Shown piece by piece: positions 1 through 34,717 of a DNA stretch of 64,000 nt (position 1 is its first letter; each line of letters opens with the position of its first letter). The DNA comes from an uncultured Prevotellaceae bacterium (lineage in GTDB: Bacteria > Bacteroidota > Bacteroidia > Bacteroidales > Muribaculaceae). The DNA lies in NCBI GenBank assembly GCA_947167995.1, contig CAMVKS010000001.1, forward strand, positions 1 to 64,000, in the 5' to 3' direction. The position numbers were made by a program, and so were the translations under genes. The notes beneath the pieces were generated by a model. The model saw only the letters and a list, made by a program, of their open reading frames with translations, was not told the origin of the DNA and ran no database searches.

Positions 1-1535
1 GTGGCGTGTGGGCCTATCCTGGTACCCCATCGACCGAGATTACCGAGTTTATTCAGAAGAGTGAGATTGCTCGCACTGGTAATGTTCACTGCCTGTGGAG
101 TGCTAACGAAAAGACCGCCATGGAAGAGGCGCTTGGCATGAGCTATGCCGGCAAGCGTGCCATGGTGTGCATGAAACACGTGGGTATGAACGTGTGTGCC
201 GATGCCTTCGTTAACAGCGCTGTGACCGGAGCCAATGGCGGACTGGTTATCGTGGCTTGCGACGACCCATCGATGCACTCATCGCAGAACGAGCAGGATT
301 CTCGTTTCTACGCCGACTTTGCTATGATGCCTTGCTTTGAGCCAGCATCACAGCAGGAGGCCTATGACATGGTTCGTTGCGCCTTTGAATACAGCGAGAA
401 GAACCGTATCCCAGTGTTGATGCGTCTTACCACACGCATGGCTCACTCTCGTGCTATCGTTGAGACCAGCGAGCAGATGCCACAGAACGAGGTTCACTTC
501 CCCGAGAATCCTCGCCAGTGGGTGACTCTTCCAGTCAATGCACGCATGCGCAACGATCAGCTTGTGAAAGACATTCTCGCCTTTGAAGAGGATGCCTGCA
601 CTATGGGGCAGAACAAGTATATCGATGGCGCCGACCACTCGATGGGTATCATCACTTGCGGTATCGCCTATAATTACCTGATGGAGAACTATCCTGACGG
701 ATGCCCATTCCCCGTGCTCAAACTCACTCAATATCCATTGCCCAAGAAGTTGGTGCGCAAGATGGCTGCCGAGTGCAAGAGCATTATGGTTGTTGAAGAA
801 GGTCAGCCCCTCGTTGAGAAACTCATGCGCGGTGTTCTCGAGCAACCTATCGAAATCAAGGGACGACTCGATGGCACTTTGCCACGCACTGGTGAGTTGA
901 ACCCCGACTGCCTGCGTGCAGCTCTTGGAATTGAGCCAATGGAGGCCCATCCAGCAGCTCAAAACACCGTGCCTCGTCCACCAGCTTTGTGCCAGGGATG
1001 CGGTCACCGCGATTTCTATACCGCTCTTAACAATGTGCTCAAGAATTATGAGACAGCTCGAGTGTTTGCCGACATTGGCTGCTACACCTTGGGTTGGCTC
1101 GCACCTTTCCACGCTTTCCAGACTTGCGTTGAGATGGGTGCTTCACTCACCATGGCAATCGGTGCAAGCAAATCGGGGGTTCATCCCTCGGTGGCTGTGA
1201 TTGGTGACTCTACTTTCACCCACAGTGGTATGACAGGTTTGCTCGATGCCGTCAACAAGAATGCCAACATGACTCTGTGCATCAGCGACAACTTGACAAC
1301 TGGTATGACTGGTGGTCAAGACTCGGCAGGTACAGGACGTCTCGAGCAGATTTGCTACGGATTGGGCGTCGACCCAGCTCACGTGCGCGTTATCGTTCCT
1401 CTGCCAAAAAACTACCCCGACATGGAGAAAGTCATTGACGAGGAAATCAACTACAAGGGCGTCTCTGTCATTATCGCGCGTCGCGAGTGCATCCAGACTG
1501 CCAAACGCCACGCTAAAGCCAAGGCCAAGAAATAA
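1..1535 (+). CDS. iorA: Indolepyruvate ferredoxin oxidoreductase, alpha subunit (5' partial)
   Basis: Catalytic TPP-binding subunit that oxidatively decarboxylates arylpyruvates (indolepyruvate, phenylpyruvate, hydroxyphenylpyruvate) to arylacetyl-CoA with reduction of ferredoxin. The frame is open to the window edge, and the first visible residues match the family N-terminal motif YPGTPSTEI, so only about 20-30 residues are missing. The pyrimidine-binding half is N-terminal. The TPP half carries CQGCGHRDF, the GDSTFTHSG motif and a following NKNAN stretch. Unlike the well-known archaeal IorA, the protein ends in a short Lys/Ala-rich tail (KRHAKAKAKK) with no CxxCxxC ferredoxin domain, so it must pass electrons to a separate ferredoxin or partner. 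First visible gene of an operon with iorB, an aminotransferase and a CoA-transferase. Confidence 0.93.
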   Translation, partial: GVWAYPGTPSTEITEFIQKSEIARTGNVHCLWSANEKTAMEEALGMSYAGKRAMVCMKHVGMNVCADAFVNSAVTGANGGLVIVACDDPSMHSSQNEQDSRFYADFAMMPCFEPASQQEAYDMVRCAFEYSEKNRIPVLMRLTTRMAHSRAIVETSEQMPQNEVHFPENPRQWVTLPVNARMRNDQLVKDILAFEEDACTMGQNKYIDGADHSMGIITCGIAYNYLMENYPDGCPFPVLKLTQYPLPKKLVRKMAAECKSIMVVEEGQPLVEKLMRGVLEQPIEIKGRLDGTLPRTGELNPDCLRAALGIEPMEAHPAAQNTVPRPPALCQGCGHRDFYTALNNVLKNYETARVFADIGCYTLGWLAPFHAFQTCVEMGASLTMAIGASKSGVHPSVAVIGDSTFTHSGMTGLLDAVNKNANMTLCISDNLTTGMTGGQDSAGTGRLEQICYGLGVDPAHVRVIVPLPKNYPDMEKVIDEEINYKGVSVIIARRECIQTAKRHAKAKAKK

Positions 1536-1565
1536 TCATTAGAAAACTAAAACAACAACCAAATC

Positions 1566-2150
1566 ATGAAACAAGATATAATACTTTGCGGTGTGGGCGG
1601 ACAAGGTATCCTCTCCATTGCTACTATCATAGGTTGGGCTGCACTCAAAGAGGGTATTCACCTCAAGCAAGCCGAGGTGCATGGCATGAGCCAGCGTGGA
1701 GGAGACGTTCAGAGCAATCTGAGACTCTCCGATCAACCCATCGCCAGCGACCTCATCGCTCACGGAGCTTGCGACCTCATTATCTCCCTCGAGCCAATGG
1801 AGGCTTTGCGTTATGTGCAGTATCTTAACCCTAAAGGATGGGTTATCACCAACACCACTCCTTTTGTCAATATCCCCAACTATCCCGAGATGGACGATGT
1901 GAACAACGAGCTCAAGAAGCTGGGCAACGTGATTATGATCGACGTTGACACTATTGCCAAGGAGGTGAAATCGCCACGCAGCGCCAACATGGTGCTCCTC
2001 GGCGCTGCCGCCTCGGTGCTCGAAATGCTTAAACCCGAACAGCTCCTCGAGGGTATCACCAACGTCTTTGCCAGCAAGGGCGAAGCTATTGTAGAGACCA
2101 ACATCGCAGCCTTCAAGGCTGGTTATGAGTTTGCACAGAAAAACAAATAA
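1566..2150 (+). CDS. iorB: Indolepyruvate ferredoxin oxidoreductase, beta subunit
   Basis: Gamma/beta-type 2-oxoacid oxidoreductase subunit of 194 residues that pairs with IorA. The N-terminus shows the family glycine motif GVGGQGILS, followed by an EVHGMSQRGG segment typical of the CoA-binding catalytic subunit. Length is normal for IorB. It lies 30 nt after iorA in the same direction, the usual arrangement, so the two are almost certainly co-transcribed and form the heterodimer or heterotetramer. The start is the only good ATG before the glycine motif. Confidence 0.95.
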   Translation: MKQDIILCGVGGQGILSIATIIGWAALKEGIHLKQAEVHGMSQRGGDVQSNLRLSDQPIASDLIAHGACDLIISLEPMEALRYVQYLNPKGWVITNTTPFVNIPNYPEMDDVNNELKKLGNVIMIDVDTIAKEVKSPRSANMVLLGAAASVLEMLKPEQLLEGITNVFASKGEAIVETNIAAFKAGYEFAQKNK

Positions 2151-2217
2151 CGAGAAGACATGAGGATATCTCTCCACTCTTTCCTCTCACTCTCACCCAT
2201 TAAACTATAAAACAACT

Positions 2218-3537
2218 ATGAGTTTTCCTATTAAACAACAAGTTCTAAACGATATTCTTGCAAAACGTGATCTTACCGACGTGTCGAGGACAACAATACG
2301 TCAATGCGCAGCCATAGCAGCCGAGATGGAGAAGGCTGCCGGCGAAAAGTTCTTGCGCCTTGAGGTGGGTGTGCCTGGTCTTGCTCCTGGTCAAGTGGGC
2401 GTCGAGGCTCAAAAGGCCGCCCTCGATCATGGCATTGCCAGCATCTATCCCGCTATCAGCGGTCTTCCTGAACTCAAGGAAAATGCTTCAAAGTTCATCA
2501 AGGCGTTTATCGACGTTGACATTAATCCAGAATGCATCGTGCCTACTGTTGGTTCTATGCAGGCTGGTATGAACCTGATGCTTGAGTGCTCACAGCTCGA
2601 CCCCAAGAAAGATACAATCCTCTATGTCAACCCAGGTTTTGCCCCTCATGTGATGCAGGCTCAGGTTCAAGGCATCAAGCACAAGCAGTTCGACATCTAT
2701 GAATTCCGCGGTGCTAAACTTCGTGCTAAACTCGAGGAGTATTGCTCTCAAGGTAATATTGTGGCTATCGTTTACTCCAACCCCAACAACCCATCGTGGG
2801 TTTGCTTGACCGAAGAGGAGCTGCAGATTATCGGTGAGATGGCCAATAAATACGACATGATTGTACTTGAAGACCACGCCTATATGTGCATGGACTTCCG
2901 TACCGACAAGTCGGTGCCTTTCGAACCTCCATTCCAGCCCACTGTTGCCCGTTATACCGACAATTATGTCTTCATGCTTTCAGGCTCGAAGATTTTCAGC
3001 TATGCCGGTGAGCGAATCGCTGTTGTGGCGTTCAGCAACAAGCTGTTCAACCGTGAGTACCCTGCTCTGCGTGAGAGATACAACATCGGCCGAATGGGTG
3101 ATAACTTCATCTTCACCTATCTTTATGTGGCTTCTTCAGGTACTTCTCATTCGGCACAATATGCACTCTCGGCAATGATGAAAGCCGCAGTTGATGGTAC
3201 CTACAAGTTCGTTGATGAGGTGCGCGAGTATGGACGTCGTGCCAAGATTACCAAAGAAATCTTCCTCAAGCATGGCTTCAATATTATCTATGATAAGGAT
3301 GGCGATCAAGACCTTGCCGACGGCTTCTACTACACAATTGGTTATGAGGGAATGAGCGACTCTGAGCTTCTCAACGACTTGATGCTCTGTGGTATCTCGG
3401 CAATCACCCTCAACACCACTGGTAGCAAACAGCCTGGTATTCGTGCTTGCGTATCGCAGCTCAACAGCGAGTGGCACATTCAGGCTCTTGACGAGCGTTT
3501 GGCAATGTTTGTAGAACTTCAAAAATCCAAGAAATAA
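2218..3537 (+). CDS. PLP-dependent aminotransferase class I/II, probably aromatic amino acid
   Basis: Fold-type I aminotransferase of 439 residues. Visible hallmarks are the NPNNPS motif of the substrate/PLP pocket, an acidic LEDHAY segment (the PLP-pyridine Asp), and the Schiff-base lysine in SGSKIFSYAGER (about Lys258). Its place directly between iorAB and a CoA-transferase implies that it makes the 2-oxo acid used by IorAB, most likely from Trp, Phe or Tyr. Substrate identity is inference; branched-chain or methionine substrates are not excluded. It starts 67 nt after iorB and ends in a TAATG overlap with the next gene, so translation is probably coupled. Confidence 0.85.
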   Translation: MSFPIKQQVLNDILAKRDLTDVSRTTIRQCAAIAAEMEKAAGEKFLRLEVGVPGLAPGQVGVEAQKAALDHGIASIYPAISGLPELKENASKFIKAFIDVDINPECIVPTVGSMQAGMNLMLECSQLDPKKDTILYVNPGFAPHVMQAQVQGIKHKQFDIYEFRGAKLRAKLEEYCSQGNIVAIVYSNPNNPSWVCLTEEELQIIGEMANKYDMIVLEDHAYMCMDFRTDKSVPFEPPFQPTVARYTDNYVFMLSGSKIFSYAGERIAVVAFSNKLFNREYPALRERYNIGRMGDNFIFTYLYVASSGTSHSAQYALSAMMKAAVDGTYKFVDEVREYGRRAKITKEIFLKHGFNIIYDKDGDQDLADGFYYTIGYEGMSDSELLNDLMLCGISAITLNTTGSKQPGIRACVSQLNSEWHIQALDERLAMFVELQKSKK

Positions 3538-4829
3538 TGAATTATATGAGTGCCGACGAGGCGGTTCGCCTTGTCAAGAGCGGTGACCACATCTATTGCA
3601 TGGGCAGCACGGCAATTCCCGTGGTGTTGCAGAGCGCATTGGCGCGACGTGCCAGCGAGCTTCGCGACGTGGTGGTCTATTCGGCTTTCAACGTGCCCTA
3701 TGGCGAATGTCCGTTGTGCAATCCCGAGTATAAGGACTCGTTCATCACAAAGAGCCTCTTCTTGAGCGGTGACCAGCGCAAGTGGGTAGCTCAAGGCTAC
3801 GGTGAGGTCATCCCTGCTTTCTTGGGCGAGATTCCTTTCTTGTTCCGCAGCAAGCAGCTGCCTCTCGACGTCACATTCCTGAACTGCTCGCCTCCCGACA
3901 AGGACGGCTATTGCAGCTATGGTATGAGCGCCGACTTGGCTTTCAGCGCTGTAGAAATGTCGAAGACTATCATCGCGCAAATCAACGACAGCATGCCCTA
4001 TCTGTGTGGTGCCGCAAAGATTCACGAGAGCCAGATTGCTGCTGCAGTGCGATGCGACGAGCCACCGTTGGCAATGGAATTTGGCGAGTCTACTCCCATT
4101 GAGAGTGCTATTGGCGGCTTTATCGCTGCCGAGATTCCCGATGGTGCAACGCTGCAAATTGGTGTGGGAGGTATCCCCAACGCAGTGCTTGCCGGCATCA
4201 CAAACCACAAGCACCTGGGACTACACACCGAGGCGATGACCGACGGCGTGGTACGTCTCATGGAAGAAGGCGTTATCGACAATAGCCTCAAGAAGATTCG
4301 TCCGGGCAAGAGTGTCGCAAGTCTTGCTCTTGGCTCAAAACGCATGTACGAATTCCTTCATTATAACGAGGACGTGGAGTTCTATGATGTGGCTTGGACC
4401 AACGACCCAGCAGTGATTCGACAGAATCCAAAGCCCATTGCCATCAACAGTGCAATTGAGGTGGACTTGACTGGACAGGTGTGTGCCGATAGTATTGGAA
4501 CAATGATTTTCTCGAGTGTGGGTGGTCAGCACGACTTTATGTATGGTGCTGCTCTCAACCCCGAGGGCAAGACTTTCATTGCGCTGCCGTCACGCACTGG
4601 CAAGGGAAAGAGCAAGATCGTGCCAACCCTCACTCCTGGTGCTGGCGTGGTGACCACTCGATTCCAAACGCAGTATGTCGTCACCGAGCATGGCATCGTC
4701 TACCTGCGCAACAAGAGCATGGCTGAGCGTGCAAGAGCTCTTATCTCGATTGCTCACCCCGACGACCGAGAGGCACTGGAGCGTGCGGCCTATGAGCGCT
4801 TCGGATACAGCTTCTTGCGCTACAAGTAA
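3537..4829 (+). CDS. Acetyl-CoA hydrolase / 4-hydroxybutyrate CoA-transferase family protein
   Basis: Family I CoA-transferase/hydrolase of 430 residues (two-domain AcCoA_hydrolase type). The glycine-rich stretch IGVGGIPNAV is followed by LGLHTEAMTDG, where the Glu (about residue 232) matches the catalytic glutamate that forms the glutamyl-CoA thioester. The C-terminal domain contains FSSVGGQHDFMYGA. The start codon overlaps the stop of the upstream aminotransferase by one base. In context it would release aryl or acyl acid from the CoA ester made by IorAB, by transferring CoA to acetate or another acid. Hydrolase versus transferase activity cannot be decided from sequence. Last gene of the operon. 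Confidence 0.85.
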   Translation: MNYMSADEAVRLVKSGDHIYCMGSTAIPVVLQSALARRASELRDVVVYSAFNVPYGECPLCNPEYKDSFITKSLFLSGDQRKWVAQGYGEVIPAFLGEIPFLFRSKQLPLDVTFLNCSPPDKDGYCSYGMSADLAFSAVEMSKTIIAQINDSMPYLCGAAKIHESQIAAAVRCDEPPLAMEFGESTPIESAIGGFIAAEIPDGATLQIGVGGIPNAVLAGITNHKHLGLHTEAMTDGVVRLMEEGVIDNSLKKIRPGKSVASLALGSKRMYEFLHYNEDVEFYDVAWTNDPAVIRQNPKPIAINSAIEVDLTGQVCADSIGTMIFSSVGGQHDFMYGAALNPEGKTFIALPSRTGKGKSKIVPTLTPGAGVVTTRFQTQYVVTEHGIVYLRNKSMAERARALISIAHPDDREALERAAYERFGYSFLRYK

Positions 4830-4845
4830 TGTCACAAACATATTA

Positions 4846-4890
4846 ATACAATGAAAGCGTCAAATTTTTTGACGCTTTCATTGTATTATA
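4846..4890. terminator. Perfect 19-bp hairpin between converging operons
   Basis: ATACAATGAAAGCGTCAAA is followed, after a 3-nt loop, by its exact reverse complement. The hairpin sits between the end of the CoA-transferase gene (+) and the end of buk (-), with A/T-rich flanks on both sides, so it can serve as a bidirectional terminator. Confidence 0.85.
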
Positions 4891-4930
4891 GGCGAACCTA
4901 ATTATGCATTGTCGTTATCAATTATGCATT

Positions 4931-5992
4931 TTACTTATACTCTTTGGCTTCACGCTTGCCTTTAAGAACAGCTGCGGCATTGCCTGCCAGAGCACCCATC
5001 TCGTCTTCGCCAGGGAAGCAGTAGGTGGGAGCAAGGAAGTCGATGCGCTTGCGCAGCTCGCCAGTGAGGTAATCACTATGTGCCATTCCACCAGTGAGGA
5101 GGATAGCGTCGATCTTACCGCACAGTACAGCACTCTCGGCAGCAATCTGTTTAGCCACATGATAAATCATGGCGTCAAGGACAGTCTTGGCATGTTGGTC
5201 GCCATTGTTGATGCGCTCCTCGATTTCCAGCAGGTCGGTAGTGCCCAGGTGAGCGTTCAATCCACCCTTGCCAGTGATCATCTTGAGGATTTCTTCCTTA
5301 GTGTACTTGCCACTGAAGCACAAGCGCACGAGGTCGGCAGCAGGTACTGTTCCGGCACGCTCGGGAGTGAATGGGCCTTCACCATCGAGTGCATTAGGAG
5401 CATCAACAGCAACACCCTTCTCGTGCGCGGCTACCGAGATACCTCCACCCAAGTGGCAGATGATAAGGTTCATTTCCTCATATTTCTTGCCAATCTCACG
5501 GGCGAAGCGGCGTGCAATAGCCTTTTGGTTAAGTGGATGCCAGATGCTCACGCGCTTAATCTCGGGAATACCGCAGATGCGGGCATAGTCATTCAACTCG
5601 TCAACAACAACGGGGTCGGCGATGAAGCTGCGGCAACCAGGAATTTGCTGAGCAATCTTGTGTGCAATGAGACAGCCCAGGTTGCAGGCATGCTCGCGAG
5701 GAGAATTGCGAGTGTCCTCAAGCATTTTCTCGTTAATCTCATATACGCCACCGGGAACGGCTTTGCCAAGACCTCCGCGGCCAATAACGGCCTTAAAGTT
5801 GAAGTCTACATTGGTGACCTTGATCTCGTTCATTACAAGGTTGTAACGGAAATCAAACTGGTCCAAAATCGACTTGTAGGGAGCCAGCTCCTCGGGTTTG
5901 TGACGAATAGAGCGAAGCAGCAATGGGGTCTCGCCTTCGTAAACGGCAAACTTAGTAGAAGTAGAACCTGGGTTGATAACAAGTATACGCAT
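4931..5992 (-). CDS. buk: Butyrate kinase (acyl kinase)
   Basis: ASKHA-fold acid kinase of 353 residues that converts an acyl phosphate plus ADP to the acid plus ATP. The N-terminal phosphate-binding motif is INPGSTSTKFAVYEG. A GRGGLG motif, the HLGGGISVAAH motif and the LTGGMAHSDYL segment follow in the family order, at normal length for butyrate kinase and shorter than acetate kinase. It is encoded 54 nt downstream of ptb on the same strand, the usual ptb-buk pair. Natural substrates in this family include butyryl, isobutyryl, isovaleryl and sometimes arylacetyl phosphates, which fits the neighbouring ior operon. Confidence 0.95.
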   Translation of the reverse strand: MRILVINPGSTSTKFAVYEGETPLLLRSIRHKPEELAPYKSILDQFDFRYNLVMNEIKVTNVDFNFKAVIGRGGLGKAVPGGVYEINEKMLEDTRNSPREHACNLGCLIAHKIAQQIPGCRSFIADPVVVDELNDYARICGIPEIKRVSIWHPLNQKAIARRFAREIGKKYEEMNLIICHLGGGISVAAHEKGVAVDAPNALDGEGPFTPERAGTVPAADLVRLCFSGKYTKEEILKMITGKGGLNAHLGTTDLLEIEERINNGDQHAKTVLDAMIYHVAKQIAAESAVLCGKIDAILLTGGMAHSDYLTGELRKRIDFLAPTYCFPGEDEMGALAGNAAAVLKGKREAKEYK

Positions 5993-6046
5993 AGTTGTTT
6001 GTTGTTATATATTAAATTAATGTGTAATTAAGATTGTTTTGATTAA

Positions 6047-6952
6047 TTAAATAGCCGATGCCACTGCAAGGCTATAGAACTTCGACTCGATGCTGTCGCC
6101 GCGAGATGGAAGCACAACAGGTACTTTTGCGCCCTGAAGCAAGCCTGCGGTCTGTGCGTGGCACAACAATGTGATGGTCTTGTAGAACACGTTGCCGCTC
6201 TCAATCTCGGGGAAGAGAACTGCATCGGCCTCGCCGTTGATGGGTGATTCAATGCCCTTGTGGTGCATGCTCTCATAGCACAGTGAGCACTTCAGGTCCA
6301 GAGGACCGTCAACGATGCAATTGCCAAACTCGCCCTGTGCAGCCTTCTCCTTGATGATTACATAGTCGGCAGTGCAGGGGAAGTGACGCTCGTCAACTTT
6401 CTCCGAGCAGTGGATGAGGGAAATCTTTGGCTCTTCAATGTGAAGGGCGTGAGCGATTTTAGCCACATATTTCACCTGCTCGATGCGTTGGTCAACAGTG
6501 GGGCAGGGGATTACTGCTGCATCGGTGAAGAGAAGCAGGCGCTTGAGCTCTGGAATGTCGGCCACGGTAACATGGGTGAGCACGTTGCCCTTGGGAAGAA
6601 TACCGGTTTCCTTGTTAAGGACTGCACGAAGCAGGTTGTCGGTGTTCAGCAGACCCTTCATGAGCACATTGGCACGGTCTTCTCTTACTTCGGTAACAGC
6701 CTTGGCAGCTGCGTCATCACGGTCGGTGGCATCGATAATCGAGAACTCGCTCTTGTACTGAGCAAAACGCTCGTCGGCCTCAATTTCCTGGCGGCAGCCA
6801 ACAAATGTCACGGTGATAATACCAGCCTCGAGAGCTTTGAGCACGGCACTGCGAGTAACATCGTCCTCGGCCCACACTACAGCCACACGGCTTTTTGTTC
6901 CCTTACTTGCAAGATGAGCAGTCAGCTCATCAAAATTCTTGATACTTGGCAT
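6047..6952 (-). CDS. ptb: Phosphate butyryltransferase (phosphotransacylase)
   Basis: Phosphotransacylase of 301 residues that converts acyl-CoA plus phosphate to acyl phosphate plus CoA. The N-terminal strand motif AVVWAEDDVTRSA and the central GILPKGNVLTHVTV segment are typical of Ptb rather than Pta. It is the first gene of the ptb-buk operon. A -7-like element, TACCTTTG on the minus strand (complement of 7013-7020), lies about 60 nt upstream, but no clear -33 box accompanies it. With buk it gives substrate-level ATP from acyl-CoA esters. Confidence 0.93.
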   Translation of the reverse strand: MPSIKNFDELTAHLASKGTKSRVAVVWAEDDVTRSAVLKALEAGIITVTFVGCRQEIEADERFAQYKSEFSIIDATDRDDAAAKAVTEVREDRANVLMKGLLNTDNLLRAVLNKETGILPKGNVLTHVTVADIPELKRLLLFTDAAVIPCPTVDQRIEQVKYVAKIAHALHIEEPKISLIHCSEKVDERHFPCTADYVIIKEKAAQGEFGNCIVDGPLDLKCSLCYESMHHKGIESPINGEADAVLFPEIESGNVFYKTITLLCHAQTAGLLQGAKVPVVLPSRGDSIESKFYSLAVASAI

Positions 6953-16220: not shown

Positions 16221-17324
16221 CTATTGGGGCAAAGAAGCTGCCGAACGAATACATTTAGTGGTGTTTTCGGCGCCTCGGGTGGGTTCGGTAAAATAGAATA
16301 TACCGTCTTTGCCGTCTACTCTGCCTGCCGAGATTCCGAGTGGGGCAGCAGCGGCACACATGCCATCCATGAATTTCTCATCTTTGGTGATGGTTACCGA
16401 CTTCTTGCCGCCAACTTTGAATCCAACCTCCAGGCAGTCCACTACATAAAACTCACCAGGTTTAAGTTCTACTTGGGGGAAACGCCACTGGCTCAGCTCT
16501 TTCTTGCTGTTGGTGAGGCAATAGTCTTGAAGGTTGATGCTTTCTTGTGAAACATTTTTCACTTCAATCCAGGCCTTACCCTCATTATACCCCTTGGTGT
16601 GTAATTCCCACAGTCTCAGTGGGCTTTTGCGTTGTTTCTCAAGAAGTGTGCAATAGCTCTCGAAGCCTTCAGCATTGTTGTCAAAGCCAGGTGTTGCTTC
16701 ATAGCTTACTTCATATTTCTTGTCACCAAGTCGACGATAGCATTGGTCGTCTTTGAGCTCGCCATATTTTATCTCAGAAATCACCTTGTCACCATGCATC
16801 AGCTTGAGTGTTCCCCCCAAGTCCGACAGCTTGAAACTTGCGTGCAATTTTCCCTTAGGGTCGTCCTTGTCTTTTTTCGACGCAAAGATAACAAGGCATT
16901 CACCTGGCTTCAATGTTACGTCGGGGATGTCCCATGATTTCATCTTGGGGGCTTTGTCATTGTCAACATCATTGCTCGGGGCATTGTCATTATTGTTATC
17001 TTCCTCGTTGTTCAAACTGTCTTTCTTCTCTTTTTTCTTTTGAACAGCCTCTTGATCTTTCTCAAATGTCAAGGTATAACCACTCAAATTGGCGGTCTCG
17101 CTATCCGAGAGATTTTTTATCTCAATCCAGTCGTAGAGTTCTCCATCATCGTCAAGGAGCCCAGTGTGGTTGGAGGCCATTATCTCATTAATTGCCAACT
17201 GTGAATCCTGCTTGTCGTTTTGACAGGAGGTCATTGATAGCAAAAGAAGAGCAGATACAAAACACACACCATAGAACAACTTGTGGCTATGGTTTAAATC
17301 GTTAAAAAAAAATTTTTTACACAT
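16221..17324 (-). CDS. Lipoprotein with two lamin-tail domains, half-length paralogue of the CotH protein
   Basis: Exported protein of 367 residues with a lipobox-like LLSMTSC and the same opening as its downstream neighbour (LAINEIMASNHTGL versus LVINEVMASNHCGL). It contains both lamin-tail domains, separated from a Lys/Asn/Asp-rich insertion (around residues 95-130) that is longer than in the neighbour. It stops shortly after the point where the neighbour continues into its chitobiase-like and CotH domains (FTEPTRGAENTT versus FPTPTKDAENAT). It therefore looks like a tandem duplicate that lost the enzymatic half. No CotH remnant is seen in the 83-nt gap. Function unknown. Confidence 0.8.
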   Translation of the reverse strand: MCKKFFFNDLNHSHKLFYGVCFVSALLLLSMTSCQNDKQDSQLAINEIMASNHTGLLDDDGELYDWIEIKNLSDSETANLSGYTLTFEKDQEAVQKKKEKKDSLNNEEDNNNDNAPSNDVDNDKAPKMKSWDIPDVTLKPGECLVIFASKKDKDDPKGKLHASFKLSDLGGTLKLMHGDKVISEIKYGELKDDQCYRRLGDKKYEVSYEATPGFDNNAEGFESYCTLLEKQRKSPLRLWELHTKGYNEGKAWIEVKNVSQESINLQDYCLTNSKKELSQWRFPQVELKPGEFYVVDCLEVGFKVGGKKSVTITKDEKFMDGMCAAAAPLGISAGRVDGKDGIFYFTEPTRGAENTTKCIRSAASLPQ

Positions 17325-17411
17325 TCAATAAAAGTCAAAAAAGTAACACTTAATATTTTTTAATAAAATCACTTCAAATATTGACAACAACGATTGCCAT
17401 TGTCGTTGTCA

Positions 17412-18551
17412 TTACTGCTGTTGTGGCGCTGGTTTGCCTTCGTGAACTCTCTTGATGTCATCCAATGTGATGCCGAGCATTTCGGTGATGAAATAGTTGA
17501 GTTCACCTTTGTTCATCCCAATGCTGAGCCAGTAGTTGTAGAAGCACAGCGCTAAGTTGTCGGCTGGACCAAAGCTTCTGATATATCCTATCATGCCCTT
17601 CATGATGCCTCTTGTTCGTTTGTTGTTCTTTCCAAGACTCAGTGTCGATAACTCATAGTCACGGCACAGGTCGAGTTCGTTCATTCCCAGCAAACCTTCG
17701 ATTAGGAAGCTCAGCGTGCCGCATCGGTCGCAGCCAATGGCACAATGCCAGTCCACATTCTTATCTTCATACAACCTGTCAACAATCCAGTTCAGGTCTT
17801 GGACGTAGACCTTTGTATAATTCTGTATACCTTTCATGCCGGCTTCGTGTTTCAGCCTGAGGTAGTCCTTGTCCGCACCCAGGGCCGAAGTGGTTCTTTT
17901 GGTCTCATGCCTGAGGTCAAGTTCTGCGACAACATGCATGTTGTCAACAAAGTCGTGCTTACCTTCGGCGGTGATTCTGTCGAGACTTGCGCTGCGGAAT
18001 AGACGTCCATACTTGATGGGCACTCCATACTGTGTGGACCATCCCCCCAGGTCGCGGATGTTGCTGCAGTTGCGCACTTGAATCATCCTTACCTGACCTA
18101 TTGTGCGGAACACACCACTTGCCATCAAGTTTACTGTGCCGTTGTAAAGGTATTCTTCTACCTTATAATAATAAAGGCGATTGGGGAGCATGTTCCTGAT
18201 AACATAGGTCGAGGCACTCTTCTCATCGGGGTGGAATGTGATGGAATCGGTGTATGATTCGTTTTCGCTCAGGGTTATGCGCAACTCACTTATATTGGCT
18301 GCGTCGGTTGTAGGGGTCCAAGAAACTTCTTTCCCTTGTGGCCAATATAGCTTGGTGCCATAAACGCTTGAGTTGTTGTATTTTGTGATTACACTCACTC
18401 TGTAATCTGTATTACTTGTGTAGGTACTCAGAGCATCGGCCATATAATCCTGGACTGCCAGGTTTTCAATGTTGATGACCTCAATATTGTCTTGTGACCA
18501 CATCCCCAAGGCCACACACAACGCAACTAATATGATGCTTATTTTTTTCAT
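17412..18551 (-). CDS. Secreted tyrosine-protein phosphatase-like protein
   Basis: Protein of 379 residues with a signal peptide (MKKISIILVALCVALGMWS). The first 150 residues look like a fibronectin-like beta domain (KVEEYLYNG). The C-terminal 230 residues match the bacterial tyrosine phosphatase family Y_phosphatase3: NCSNIRDLGGW near its start and the P-loop HCAIGCDRCGT. The Cys-X5-Arg core (C-AIGCD-R) is intact, but the usual HCxAGKDRTG has Cys in place of Lys and Cys in place of Thr. It could act on phosphotyrosine or other phosphoesters outside the cytoplasm; activity is not certain. Transcribed toward the lamin-tail genes. Confidence 0.8.
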   Translation of the reverse strand: MKKISIILVALCVALGMWSQDNIEVINIENLAVQDYMADALSTYTSNTDYRVSVITKYNNSSVYGTKLYWPQGKEVSWTPTTDAANISELRITLSENESYTDSITFHPDEKSASTYVIRNMLPNRLYYYKVEEYLYNGTVNLMASGVFRTIGQVRMIQVRNCSNIRDLGGWSTQYGVPIKYGRLFRSASLDRITAEGKHDFVDNMHVVAELDLRHETKRTTSALGADKDYLRLKHEAGMKGIQNYTKVYVQDLNWIVDRLYEDKNVDWHCAIGCDRCGTLSFLIEGLLGMNELDLCRDYELSTLSLGKNNKRTRGIMKGMIGYIRSFGPADNLALCFYNYWLSIGMNKGELNYFITEMLGITLDDIKRVHEGKPAPQQQ

Positions 18552-21866: not shown

Positions 21867-23243
21867 ATGGAATTACCTTTTGCAGAATCTTGGAAGATTA
21901 AAATGATTGAGCCCTTGAAAAAAAGTACTCGCGAGCAACGCGAGCAATGGCTCAAAGAAGCTCACAACAACGTGTTTATGCTCAAAGCAGAGCAAGTTTA
22001 CATTGATTGCCTTACCGACTCCGGCACAGGTGCCATGAGCGACCAGCAGTGGTCGGCTATGATGCTTGGTGACGAGAGTTATGCCGGTGCAACTTCTTTC
22101 TACAAGTTCCAGGAAGTTGTTCAACGCATCTTTGGTTTCAAGTATGTAATTCCCACTCATCAGGGACGTGCTGCCGAGAACGTGCTCTTCTCTTATCTTG
22201 TTAAAGAAGGCAATGTTGTTCCTGGCAATGCTCATTTCGACACCACAAAGGGTCACATCGAAGCTCGCAAGGCAAAAGCTATCGATGTTACAATCGATGA
22301 GGCTAAGGACACTCAACTTGAGATTCCTTTCAAGGGCAATGTTTCGCTCGAGAAGCTCGAAAAGGTGCTCGTTGAGAACAAGGGCAACGTGCCTTTCATG
22401 GTGCTCACTGTTACCAATAACACCGTTGGCGGTCAGCCTGTTTCAATGAAGAACATCAAGGAAACTTGCGAGCTGTGCCACAAGTATGGTGTTCCCGTGG
22501 TTATGGACAGCGCACGCTTTGCCGAGAACTCTTATTTCATTAAGACTCGCGAGGAGGGCTATGCCGACAAGACCATCAAGGAAATTGCACGAGAAATGTA
22601 TAGCTATGTTGACGCTATGACAATGAGTGCCAAGAAAGACGGACTCGTTAACATGGGTGGATTTATTGCAACTAACAACGAGGAGTGGTACGAGGGCGCC
22701 AAATTGTTCTGCATTCCTTTCGAGGGATTCATCACCTATGGTGGTTTGAACGGCCGCGACCTCAACGCTCTGGCAGTAGGTCTTGACGAGAACACCGAGT
22801 TCGAGATGCTCGAGACTCGCATCCATCAGGTGCAGTATCTCGCCAGCAAGCTCGACGAGTATGGTATTCCTTACCAGCGTCCAGTGGGTGGTCACGCACT
22901 CTTTATCGATGCCGACAAGGTGCTCTGTAACGTTCCTAAAGAAGAGTTCCCTGCTCAGACACTCACTTGCGAGCTTTATCTCGAGGCAGGTATCCGTGGT
23001 TGCGAGATTGGCTACATCCTCGCCGACCGCGACCCAGTGACTCGCGAGAATCGCTTCGGTGGCCTCGACCTGTTGCGTCTGTGTATCGCTCGACGCGTTT
23101 ACACCGACAATCACATGAATGTCATCGCAGCAGCCCTCAAGAACGTTTATGACCGTCGCAACGAGATTACACGCGGTGTAGCTATCGAATGGGAAGCGCC
23201 ATTGATGCGCCACTTCACCGTTAAGCTCCGTCGCCTCGGTTAA
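21867..23243 (+). CDS. tnaA: Tryptophanase
   Basis: PLP beta-eliminating lyase of 458 residues: L-tryptophan to indole, pyruvate and ammonia. The family motifs are present: LTDSGTGAMSDQQW, THQGRAAENVLF and the Schiff-base lysine in MSAKKDGLVNMGG. Tryptophanase can be told from tyrosine phenol-lyase by two sites. Where C. freundii TPL has Arg381 (MERG), this protein has CEIG as in E. coli TnaA (AEIG). Where TPL has Phe448, it has His in MRHFTVKL, matching TnaA His463. The segment MDSARFAENSYFIK is also the tryptophanase form. It is monocistronic, with its own promoter and terminator. No tnaB-type permease lies next to it. Confidence 0.93.
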   Translation: MELPFAESWKIKMIEPLKKSTREQREQWLKEAHNNVFMLKAEQVYIDCLTDSGTGAMSDQQWSAMMLGDESYAGATSFYKFQEVVQRIFGFKYVIPTHQGRAAENVLFSYLVKEGNVVPGNAHFDTTKGHIEARKAKAIDVTIDEAKDTQLEIPFKGNVSLEKLEKVLVENKGNVPFMVLTVTNNTVGGQPVSMKNIKETCELCHKYGVPVVMDSARFAENSYFIKTREEGYADKTIKEIAREMYSYVDAMTMSAKKDGLVNMGGFIATNNEEWYEGAKLFCIPFEGFITYGGLNGRDLNALAVGLDENTEFEMLETRIHQVQYLASKLDEYGIPYQRPVGGHALFIDADKVLCNVPKEEFPAQTLTCELYLEAGIRGCEIGYILADRDPVTRENRFGGLDLLRLCIARRVYTDNHMNVIAAALKNVYDRRNEITRGVAIEWEAPLMRHFTVKLRRLG

Positions 23244-31162: not shown

Positions 31163-34100
31163 ATGGCTAAAGAAAAGAAATTCATGACCTGTGATGGTAA
31201 CCAAGCTGCAGCTCACATCAGCTACATGTTTACTGAAGTTGCTGCTATTTACCCCATCACTCCGTCATCCACTATGGCAGAGCACGTTGACGAATGGGCA
31301 GCTGCCGGTCGTAAAAACATCTTTGGCGAGACTGTTCTCGTGCAAGAAATGCAGAGTGAGGCAGGTGCTGCTGGTGCCGTTCACGGTTCGCTCCAGGCTG
31401 GTGCTTTGACCACCACCTACACCGCTTCGCAAGGTCTCTTGCTCATGATTCCTAACATGTACAAGATTGCCGGAGAGTTGCTTCCTGGCGTTTTCCATGT
31501 TTCGGCTCGTACACTCGCTTCTCACACCCTGTGCATCTTTGGTGACCACCAGGATGTGATGGCAACCCGCCAGACGGGCTTCGCCATGCTGTGCGAAGGC
31601 TCGGTACAGGAGGTTATGGACCTCGCTGCCGTTGCTCACTTGAGCGCTATCAAGGGACGCGTGCCATTCGTTAACTTCTTCGACGGTTTCCGCACTTCAC
31701 ACGAGATTCAGAAGGTAGAGGCTCTCGACCAAGAAGACCTCAAGCCACTCGTCGACATGGATGCTCTCGCAGGCTTCCGCAAACGTGCCATGAACCCCGA
31801 CAAGCCCGTCACTCGTGGTACTGCCGAGAACCCTGATGTGTTCTTCCAGCATCGTGAGTCGTGCAACGACTACTACACCGCAGTCCCTGCCATCGTAGAG
31901 GACTACATGAATAAGATTAGCGACCTCACTGGCCGCAAATATGGTCTTTTCGACTACTACGGAGCTAAGGATGCCGACCGCGTGATCATCGCTATGGGTT
32001 CGGTTACCGAGGCTATCCGTGAGACCATCGACCACCTCACCGAGCAAGGCGAGAAGGTGGGCCTCGTGGCAGTACACCTGTATCGTCCATTCTCGGCCAA
32101 GCACTTCCTCGCTGCCGTCCCCAGCACTGCCAAGCGCATCGCTGTGCTCGACCGCACTAAAGAGCCTGGCGCAGTGGGTGAGCCTCTCTATCTCGACGTT
32201 AAGGACTGCTTCTACGGTGCCGAGAATGCTCCTCTCATCGTTGGTGGCCGTTACGGTCTGGGTTCTAAGGACACTACTCCAGCTCAGATTCTCGCAGTTT
32301 ATGAGAACCTCTCATTGCCAATGCCAAAGAACCAGTTCACTATTGGTATCGAGGACGATGTAACATTCGCTTCTCTGCCTCAAAAAGAGGAAATCGCTCT
32401 TGGCGGCGAGGGTCTCTTCCAGGCCAAGTTCTACGGCCTCGGTGCCGACGGTACCGTGGGTGCCAACAAGAACTCGGTTAAGATTATTGGTGACAACACC
32501 GACAAGCATTGCCAAGCCTACTTCTCTTACGACTCTAAGAAGTCGGGCGGCTTCACTTGCTCTCACCTGCGCTTTGGTGATCAGCCCATCCGCTCTACTT
32601 ATCTCGTGACCACTCCTAATTTCGTCGCTTGCCATGTACAGGCCTATCTGCACATGTATGACGTGACTCGTGGTCTCCAGAAGAACGGCACATTCCTGCT
32701 CAACACAGTTTGGGATGGTGAGGATCTTGCAAAGAACCTCCCCAACAAGGTTAAGAAATACTTTGCCGACAACAATATCACTGTTTACTACATCAACGCC
32801 ACCAAGATTGCACAGGAGATTGGCTTGGGCAACCGCACCAACACCATCCTTCAGAGTGCATTCTTCCGCATCACTGGCGTTATCCCCGTTGAGCTCGCTG
32901 TAGAGCAGATGAAGAAATTCATCGTTAAGTCTTACGGCCGCAAGGGTGAGGACGTTGTGAACAAGAACTATCAAGCCGTTGACCGTGGCAGCGAATACAA
33001 GCAACTCACTGTTGAGCCAGAGTGGAGCAACCTGCCAGTTGACAACGATATCGACGACAATGCTCCTGCATTCATCAACGATGTGGTTCGTCCTATCAAC
33101 GCTCAGAACGGTGACCTCCTGCCAGTTTCGGCATTCCGTGGCCGTGAGGATGGTACTTGGGACGCAGGTACCGCCGCCTATGAGAAACGTGGTGTTGCCA
33201 CCTTCGTTCCCGTTTGGAACGCTCAGAACTGTATCCAGTGTAACAAGTGCGCACTCGTTTGTCCACACGCTGCTATCCGTCCATTCCTCATGAACGAGGA
33301 AGAGGCTGCCGCTTCGCCATTTGACGAGGCCGACAAGCTGCCTGCAATCGGCAAGACTCTCACCGGCTTGAAGTTCGTTCAGGCTGTTGACGTGATGGAC
33401 TGCCTCGGTTGCGGCAACTGTGCCGACGTTTGTCCTGGCAAGAAGGGCGAGAAGGCTCTCACTATGGTTCCTCTCGAGCAGCAGGTTGAGAACCAGAAAC
33501 TCTGGGACTACTGCGTTGCCAACGTTGCTTCTAAGCAAGACCTCGTTGACATCAAGTCTAACATCAAGAACTCGCAGTTCGCTACTCCACTCTTTGAGTT
33601 CAGTGGCGCATGCTCGGGTTGCGGTGAGACTCCTTACGTTAAGTTGATTTCTCAACTCTTTGGTGACCGTGAGATGGTAGCCAACGCTACTGGATGTAGC
33701 TCAATCTACTCGGCTTCGGTTCCTTCTTCACCTTACACTACCAACGAGAAGGGACATGGTCCTGCTTGGGCTAACTCTCTGTTTGAGGACTTCTGCGAGT
33801 TTGGTCTTGGTATGACTATCGCCGACGAGAAGATGCGCAACCGCGTTACCGGTTTCGTTAAGGACGCTATCGCTTGTGACAATGTTAGTGCGGATGTTAA
33901 AGCTCTCTATCAAGAGTGGCTCGACAACAAGGAAGATGGCGCTCGCAGCCGTGAGCTCAGCGACAAGATTCTCGCTGCTATCGAGAACAGCGATGCCGAG
34001 TGCGACAAGAAGGTTAAGAGTCTTGGCCAGTACCTCGTTAATCGTTCGCAGTGGATCATTGGTGGTGACGGCGCAAGCTACGACATCGGCTTTGGCGGTC

Positions 34101-34717
34101 TCGACCACGTGATTGCCAGTGGCAAGAACGTCAACATTCTCGTTATCGATACCGAGGTTTACTCTAACACTGGTGGACAGGCTTCGAAGGCTACTCCAAT
34201 AGGTGCTATCGCTAAGTTTGCCGCTGCCGGCAAGCGCATCCGCAAGAAAGACCTTGGTCTGATTGCTTCTACCTATGGCTACGTTTACGTTGCTCAAGTG
34301 GCAATGGGCGCAAGCGACGCACAGTGCCTCAAGGCATTCCGCGAGGCCGAGGCTTATGACGGACCTTCTATCATCATTGCTTATGCTCCATGTATCAACC
34401 ATGGTCTCAAGGTGGGTATGGGCAAGTCGCAAGCCGAGGAGGCTAAGGCCGTTGAGTGCGGTTACTGGCACCTGTGGCGCTATAACCCCGAGCTCGAGAA
34501 AGAAGGCAAGAACCCATTCACTCTCGACAGCAAGGAGCCTAAGTGGGATGAGTTTGAGAACTTCCTCAAGGGTGAGGTTCGTTACGCATCAGTAATGAAG
34601 CAGTATCCCGAGGAGGCCGAGCAACTCTTCGCCGCTGCCAAGGAGAACGCTCAGTGGCGTTACAACAACTACCGCCGTCTGGCTCGCCAGCAGTGGGGTG
34701 TTGAGCCCGAAGAGTAA
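31163..34717 (+). CDS. nifJ: Pyruvate:ferredoxin (flavodoxin) oxidoreductase
   Basis: Single-chain PFOR of 1184 residues that converts pyruvate and CoA to acetyl-CoA, CO2 and reduced ferredoxin, central to anaerobic energy metabolism. Domains in order: pyrimidine-binding domain I (YPITPSSTMAEH), transketolase C-like domain II, gamma-type domain III (FRFGDQPIRS region), a two-cluster ferredoxin domain with CIQCNKCALVCP and CLGCGNCADVCPG, and the TPP domain with GCGETPYVK and GGDGASYDIG. The additional proximal-cluster Cys are in CSGCGE and in ACINHGLK. Expressed alone from a consensus promoter and ended by a hairpin; G+C-rich preferred codons suggest high expression. Confidence 0.97.
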   Translation: MAKEKKFMTCDGNQAAAHISYMFTEVAAIYPITPSSTMAEHVDEWAAAGRKNIFGETVLVQEMQSEAGAAGAVHGSLQAGALTTTYTASQGLLLMIPNMYKIAGELLPGVFHVSARTLASHTLCIFGDHQDVMATRQTGFAMLCEGSVQEVMDLAAVAHLSAIKGRVPFVNFFDGFRTSHEIQKVEALDQEDLKPLVDMDALAGFRKRAMNPDKPVTRGTAENPDVFFQHRESCNDYYTAVPAIVEDYMNKISDLTGRKYGLFDYYGAKDADRVIIAMGSVTEAIRETIDHLTEQGEKVGLVAVHLYRPFSAKHFLAAVPSTAKRIAVLDRTKEPGAVGEPLYLDVKDCFYGAENAPLIVGGRYGLGSKDTTPAQILAVYENLSLPMPKNQFTIGIEDDVTFASLPQKEEIALGGEGLFQAKFYGLGADGTVGANKNSVKIIGDNTDKHCQAYFSYDSKKSGGFTCSHLRFGDQPIRSTYLVTTPNFVACHVQAYLHMYDVTRGLQKNGTFLLNTVWDGEDLAKNLPNKVKKYFADNNITVYYINATKIAQEIGLGNRTNTILQSAFFRITGVIPVELAVEQMKKFIVKSYGRKGEDVVNKNYQAVDRGSEYKQLTVEPEWSNLPVDNDIDDNAPAFINDVVRPINAQNGDLLPVSAFRGREDGTWDAGTAAYEKRGVATFVPVWNAQNCIQCNKCALVCPHAAIRPFLMNEEEAAASPFDEADKLPAIGKTLTGLKFVQAVDVMDCLGCGNCADVCPGKKGEKALTMVPLEQQVENQKLWDYCVANVASKQDLVDIKSNIKNSQFATPLFEFSGACSGCGETPYVKLISQLFGDREMVANATGCSSIYSASVPSSPYTTNEKGHGPAWANSLFEDFCEFGLGMTIADEKMRNRVTGFVKDAIACDNVSADVKALYQEWLDNKEDGARSRELSDKILAAIENSDAECDKKVKSLGQYLVNRSQWIIGGDGASYDIGFGGLDHVIASGKNVNILVIDTEVYSNTGGQASKATPIGAIAKFAAAGKRIRKKDLGLIASTYGYVYVAQVAMGASDAQCLKAFREAEAYDGPSIIIAYAPCINHGLKVGMGKSQAEEAKAVECGYWHLWRYNPELEKEGKNPFTLDSKEPKWDEFENFLKGEVRYASVMKQYPEEAEQLFAAAKENAQWRYNNYRRLARQQWGVEPEE

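Follow-up and report, generated by a model that had tools for sequence, protein, structure and literature searches.

A four-gene indolepyruvate oxidoreductase operon with a CoA-transferase gene, and a neighboring, probably separate ptb-buk unit, in a gut bacteroidalean

Modules that join an OFOR to an acyltransferase and a kinase have been demonstrated biochemically in Clostridium (PMC13285125), and contexts in which an OFOR, an aminotransferase, and Ptb-Buk occur together have been described in Firmicutes and demonstrated there in part (PMC13285125, PMC13290082). HpdDEFG-HpdJ-HpdK of Clostridium scatologenes (PMC13285125) resembles the locus described here in the proximity of an OFOR to genes for a phosphate acyltransferase and an acyl kinase and in a conversion of arylpyruvate to arylacetate with energy saved, which for our locus is a prediction. 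In clusters of the C. scatologenes type, the three activities are encoded in a single gene cluster and have been proven biochemically; in our locus, by contrast, ptb-buk forms a separate convergent unit that is not conserved beside the operon, the oxidoreductase is an IOR of two subunits, and the operon itself includes a CoA-transferase gene. In Bacteroides, iorAB is found with an AMP-forming arylacetate-CoA ligase (PMC13285125), in the same order of bacteria as here and matching a paaK-type operon that we found in relatives; our locus differs in carrying a CoA-transferase gene in the ligase's place and in lacking the relatives' ACT gene and upstream amidohydrolase gene. A biosynthetic role has been argued as possible from the Bacteroides ligase (PMC13285125). 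Work cited in the same paper links the IOR of B. thetaiotaomicron to the formation of phenylacetate from phenylalanine, so the presence of paaK need not mean biosynthesis.

Three acyl-CoA:acetate CoA-transferases of Porphyromonas gingivalis (PGN_0725, PGN_1888, and PGN_1341) share a superfamily with the CoA-transferase encoded here, and their deletion lowers isobutyrate and isovalerate (PMC4949257). Those enzymes were assayed on butyryl- and propionyl-CoA (PMC4949257), whereas arylacetyl-CoA is proposed for ours. A butyrate kinase homologue is reported to be missing in P. gingivalis (PMC6461089). No IOR operon with a CoA-transferase appeared in the literature we searched (most subscription journals lie outside it), and neither PMC13285125 nor PMC13290082 mentions one. 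Within that scope, the arrangement is new, and it is related to the known OFOR modules for amino acid fermentation in Firmicutes.

We analyzed a 64,000-nucleotide stretch of DNA, here called the window, whose first letter is base 1 of contig C1 in a draft genome (2.93 Mb, 121 contigs, 95.9% complete). The nearest loci come from ruminant-gut (rumen) MAGs labeled Bacteroidales, Muribaculaceae, or Prevotellaceae. The original prediction had placed six genes at the start of the window and assigned each to a family; we found six intact open reading frames there in two convergent units, and the assignments agreed with profile matches (TIGR03336, NF005324, PF00155, PF13336/PF02550, TIGR02707, and PF01515). 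On the plus strand lie iorA (3-1535), iorB (1566-2150), a class I/II PLP aminotransferase gene (2218-3537), and a CoA-transferase gene (3537-4829). The gaps between the first three genes are 30 and 67 bp, and the start of the CoA-transferase gene overlaps the stop of the aminotransferase gene by one base, a spacing that makes an operon of these four genes plausible. On the minus strand lie genes for an acyl kinase of the butyrate kinase family (buk, 4931-5992) and a phosphate acyltransferase (ptb, 6047-6952). Elsewhere in the window, a minus-strand gene for a lamin-tail-domain protein (16221-17324) adjoins one for a tyrosine-phosphatase-family protein (17412-18551; together 16221-18551), and a plus-strand gene (31163-34717) encodes a single-chain pyruvate:ferredoxin oxidoreductase with POR_N, POR, EKR, PFOR_II, and Fer4 domains.

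The alpha subunit of the oxidoreductase is, by its predicted protein, a short form without a ferredoxin domain. The contig begins inside iorA, so the gene is truncated at its 5' end: close relatives are 533 to 535 amino acids long, and the match to them starts about 23 codons in, leaving about 23 N-terminal codons missing. This truncated protein matched TIGR03336 with an E value of 6e-148 over profile positions 25 to 542 of 595 and scored 493.8 bits, below the cutoff of 650.9. It shares with the classical indolepyruvate:ferredoxin oxidoreductase (TIGR03336) the TPP domains and the IorA plus IorB architecture: POR_N and TPP_enzyme_C were the only Pfam domains in the alpha subunit, and a separate POR-type subunit, the gamma/beta subunit IorB, matched PF01558 and scored 310.8 bits against NF005324 (cutoff, 222). 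The classical alpha subunit carries a C-terminal ferredoxin domain; in contrast, Fer4 was absent here, and the motif CxxCxxCxxxC occurred in none of 106 homologues. Four cysteines are invariant across these 106 homologues, in an arrangement that fits a single [4Fe-4S] cluster, and electrons would pass directly from IorAB to soluble ferredoxin. The short form is usual in Bacteroidales, where an IorA match was found in 122 of the 149 genomes searched. A second, distant IorA paralogue with the ferredoxin motif, 606 to 642 amino acids long, occurs in other genomes; in L246, L247, L248, and L249 it is 606 to 609 amino acids long and ∼30% identical to IorA of the window.

The remaining two products of the operon were assigned by family and context. 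The sole close solved relative of the aminotransferase is 3g0t, itself a putative aminotransferase (E value, 2e-135); the gene keeps its position between iorB and either the CoA-transferase gene (coaT) or paaK, and this operon context suggests an aromatic 2-oxo acid as the substrate. The CoA-transferase belongs to the 4-hydroxybutyrate/butyryl-CoA:acetate transferase type, with the N- and C-terminal AcetylCoA_hydro domains (PF13336 and PF02550) above cutoff and solved relatives 9vag, 2oas, 3gk7, and 3eh7. Its score against the butyryl-CoA:acetate equivalog TIGR03948 was 284.4 bits, below the cutoff of 674.8. Glu232 of an HTE motif, aligned in 9vag and 2oas, is presumably the catalytic glutamate.

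On balance, we favor, with modest confidence, a reading in which the four-gene operon oxidizes phenylalanine and tyrosine catabolically in a peptide-dependent gut bacteroidalean, with ptb-buk independent of it. The aminotransferase would convert Phe or Tyr to arylpyruvate, and IorAB, an enzyme predicted to act on aryl-2-oxo acids (the arylpyruvate, or IOR, type) with TPP and one [4Fe-4S] cluster, would decarboxylate this oxidatively to arylacetyl-CoA and reduce ferredoxin. The CoA-transferase would then move CoA from arylacetyl-CoA to acetate, releasing arylacetate and keeping the energy as acetyl-CoA, which would yield ATP by the usual acetate route. It is important to note that because all steps are reversible, gene content alone does not fix the direction; the substrates, the direction, and acetate as CoA acceptor are inferred from the gene families and their context.

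That the aminotransferase, IorAB, and the CoA-transferase form a unit, as first proposed, held up across the family: iorA-iorB-aminotransferase-coaT was found in 38 of the 50 IorA-positive family genomes. One locus (L139) has a different gene order, and in one genome iorAB stands alone (L138). In 10 family genomes, mostly of relatives prototrophic for His and Phe, paaK, which encodes the AMP-forming arylacetate-CoA ligase, replaces the CoA-transferase gene, in 9 of them as iorA-iorB-aminotransferase-paaK-ACT. A gene for a carbon-nitrogen hydrolase (amidohydrolase) of the YafV type precedes all nine aminotransferase-containing paaK loci, whereas of the 35 coaT loci whose upstream sequence is long enough, none has one directly upstream; three coaT loci have a 38 to 42% homologue more than 2.5 kb away. 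The amidohydrolase of the paaK type may be an omega-amidase, and if so, it would pull glutamine-dependent transamination toward the amino acid. The paaK-type operon, which combines an ATP-consuming ligase with an ACT domain and the amidohydrolase, has the look of a pathway arranged for the reverse, biosynthetic direction. In a quick tree of IorA, the coaT and paaK types need one change, and the branch between them has 72% support. An Rfam search of six relatives found no leader RNA that might regulate the operon.

The two operon types also differ in the biosynthesis genes that accompany them. Prephenate dehydratase (PDT) was absent from 32 of 38 coaT genomes and from 1 of 10 paaK genomes, and histidinol dehydrogenase (HisD) from 36 of 38 and 1 of 10, respectively, with auxotrophy read from one marker gene each in draft assemblies. 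The association between coaT and PDT loss held when stratified by genus, a crude control for relatedness (Cochran-Mantel-Haenszel [CMH] P = 0.0013). The anticorrelation between IorA and PDT (PDT present/absent, 16/34 with IorA versus 83/16 without) became weaker on stratification by genus (P = 0.09) until the operon types were separated. PDT and TyrA were lost together. In the window's genus, PDT was missing from all nine IorA-positive genomes and present in the sole IorA-negative one; in the PDT-positive congener (L185), the genes for PDT, TyrA, an aminotransferase, and an enzyme that we read as DAHP synthase/chorismate mutase lie in one operon.

Loss of Phe and Tyr synthesis weighs against the catabolic reading to the extent that it is also expected if the operon made these amino acids from arylacetates. 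The same operon would then run in reverse: arylacetates scavenged from rumen fluid would be activated with acetyl-CoA, IorAB would carboxylate them reductively to arylpyruvates, and amination would yield Phe and Tyr in place of the lost prephenate route. The joint loss of PDT and TyrA, its tracking of the coaT operon within genera, the rumen origin of the close relatives, and the biosynthetic look of the paaK-type operons are all in keeping with this, as is Phe synthesis by reductive carboxylation of phenylacetate in rumen cultures, a result cited in PMC7356843. We nevertheless consider the reversed operon unlikely. Three components of the paaK type are missing from the coaT type (ATP-driven ligase, ACT regulator, and amidohydrolase), and genes for Lys and Trp catabolism are present. 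Moreover, His synthesis was lost in the same genomes, a loss that the oxidoreductase could not make good, which makes dependence on peptides the simpler explanation.

The wider gene content fits the part of the original prediction that placed the locus in amino acid catabolism: markers of His and Phe/Tyr synthesis are lost, and genes for a tryptophanase and for a route from lysine to butyryl-CoA are present. The tryptophanase gene tnaA (21867-23243, plus strand) shares its contig with the IOR operon and encodes an enzyme of the P. gingivalis type (NF053783, 916.9 bits; cutoff, 750; solved relative, 8sbg). Since it gives Trp another fate, the IOR is more likely to serve Phe and Tyr. The proposed use of branched-chain amino acids was weakened, as the operon enzyme is of the arylpyruvate type and a VorB-type oxidoreductase is encoded separately from the operon in the window's genome and in 141 of 149 family genomes. 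At that frequency, the VorB-type enzyme itself was uninformative as a discriminator for branched-chain use.

The original prediction had joined all six genes, including ptb and buk, into one chain of two converging operons. Two convergent units are indeed present, and the evidence argues against reading them as one cassette. The units converge on a 101-bp gap containing a near-perfect 20-bp inverted repeat (4844-4888) that folds far better than shuffled sequences (ΔG, −37.5 kcal/mol; z, −7.2). The repeat is probably a bidirectional terminator, and the four-gene operon and ptb-buk are thus probably two separate transcription units. At loci whose Ptb shares 89% identity or more, the two units face each other in the window and in nine close relatives (L010-L013, L016, L019-L021, and L026); ptb-buk lies away from the operon in 7 of the 17 informative closest relatives (L015, L017, L018, and L022-L025), a count that leaves out L014, whose sequence ends too early. 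Two genomes (G281 and G268) carry both modules on different contigs, and none of 63 more distant Ptb loci faces the full operon. In one Prevotellaceae locus (L040, 8001-12498), ptb faces aminotransferase-iorB-iorA, and buk and the CoA-transferase gene are absent. No single conserved cluster of OFOR, Ptb, and Buk was seen; judged from gene order, ptb-buk adjoins the operon only in part of the window's genus and in one partial case elsewhere.

Co-occurrence across genomes bears on the same question. Among 149 family genomes, 24 had both IorA and Ptb, 26 IorA only, and 13 Ptb only, so that Ptb was commoner in IorA-positive (24/50) than in IorA-negative (13/99) genomes. This overall excess, the adjacency in close relatives, and the analogous trios in Firmicutes (PMC13285125, PMC13290082) speak for a full six-gene cassette in which acyl-CoA from IorAB is drained by both the CoA-transferase and Ptb-Buk. 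Within genera, however, ptb and the coaT operon were not associated (CMH P = 0.86, with three informative genera only), and this, together with the terminator-like repeat, the separation of the units in 7 close and nearly all distant relatives, and the genomes with Ptb and no IorA, makes such a cassette quite improbable in our view.

As far as gene order and protein families tell, ptb-buk is an independent module leading from acyl-CoA through acyl-phosphate to ATP. Buk scored 497.8 bits against the butyrate kinase equivalog TIGR02707 (cutoff, 289.1), with solved relatives 1x9j and 1saz. This score does not fix its substrate, because some butyrate kinase homologues are known to use arylacetates or branched-chain acids (PMC13285125). 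Ptb has the PTA_PTB fold (PF01515 above cutoff; solved relative, 7vg9) and scored 247.2 bits against the butyryl equivalog TIGR02706, below the cutoff of 410.5. The module may act on branched-chain acyl-, butyryl-, or arylacetyl-CoA. Two adjacent copies of Ptb were seen in eight Bacteroidales genomes (G003, G020, G061, G089, G093, G115, G122, and G134).

The original prediction had named a separate butyryl-CoA pathway as part of what would count against it, and candidate genes for one are present: contig C115 of the same genome (G000; 4,178 bp) carries in a row, at positions 3 to 4116 (L125), genes for lysine 5,6-aminomutase beta, an oxoacid CoA-transferase subunit, crotonase, 3-hydroxybutyryl-CoA dehydrogenase, and acyl-CoA dehydrogenase. 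The acyl-CoA dehydrogenase occurred in 8 of the 10 genomes of the window's genus and in no other genome of the family sample. Ptb-Buk could accordingly be a butyrate or branched-chain terminus, fed by this cluster or by the VorB-type oxidoreductase and unrelated to the IOR operon. We give this reading, which is compatible with a catabolic four-gene operon, a nearly even chance. All eight genomes with the acyl-CoA dehydrogenase have Ptb, a VorB-type enzyme is widely available, and Buk exceeds the TIGR02707 cutoff; against this, 29 of the 37 Ptb-positive family genomes lack the dehydrogenase, the lysine cluster has its own oxoacid CoA-transferase subunit, and the near-universal VorB-type enzyme tells little. 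The narrower idea that ptb-buk is simply a butyrate terminus was rejected on the count of those 29 genomes. HisD was absent from all 37 Ptb-positive genomes (co-occurrence, 0/37), which is in line with such a butyrate or branched-chain terminus and suggests that the module goes with auxotrophy; within genera the exclusion had P = 0.095, with shared ancestry partly controlled.

A broader proposal, which we hold to be possible and somewhat doubtful, is that the last gene sets the direction of the operon: paaK with ACT and the amidohydrolase would build aromatic amino acids from arylacetates, and the form with the CoA-transferase, which would go along with recurrent loss of Phe/Tyr synthesis, would degrade them. 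In its strongest version, even the CoA-transferase form would run in reverse, and the cell would obtain Phe and Tyr from no other source. Arylacetates produced by bacteria of the gut and rumen act on the host, and phenylacetate is the precursor of phenylacetylglutamine. If coaT versus paaK is truly a marker that predicts direction, the making or use of arylacetates in Bacteroidales would become testable from genomes.
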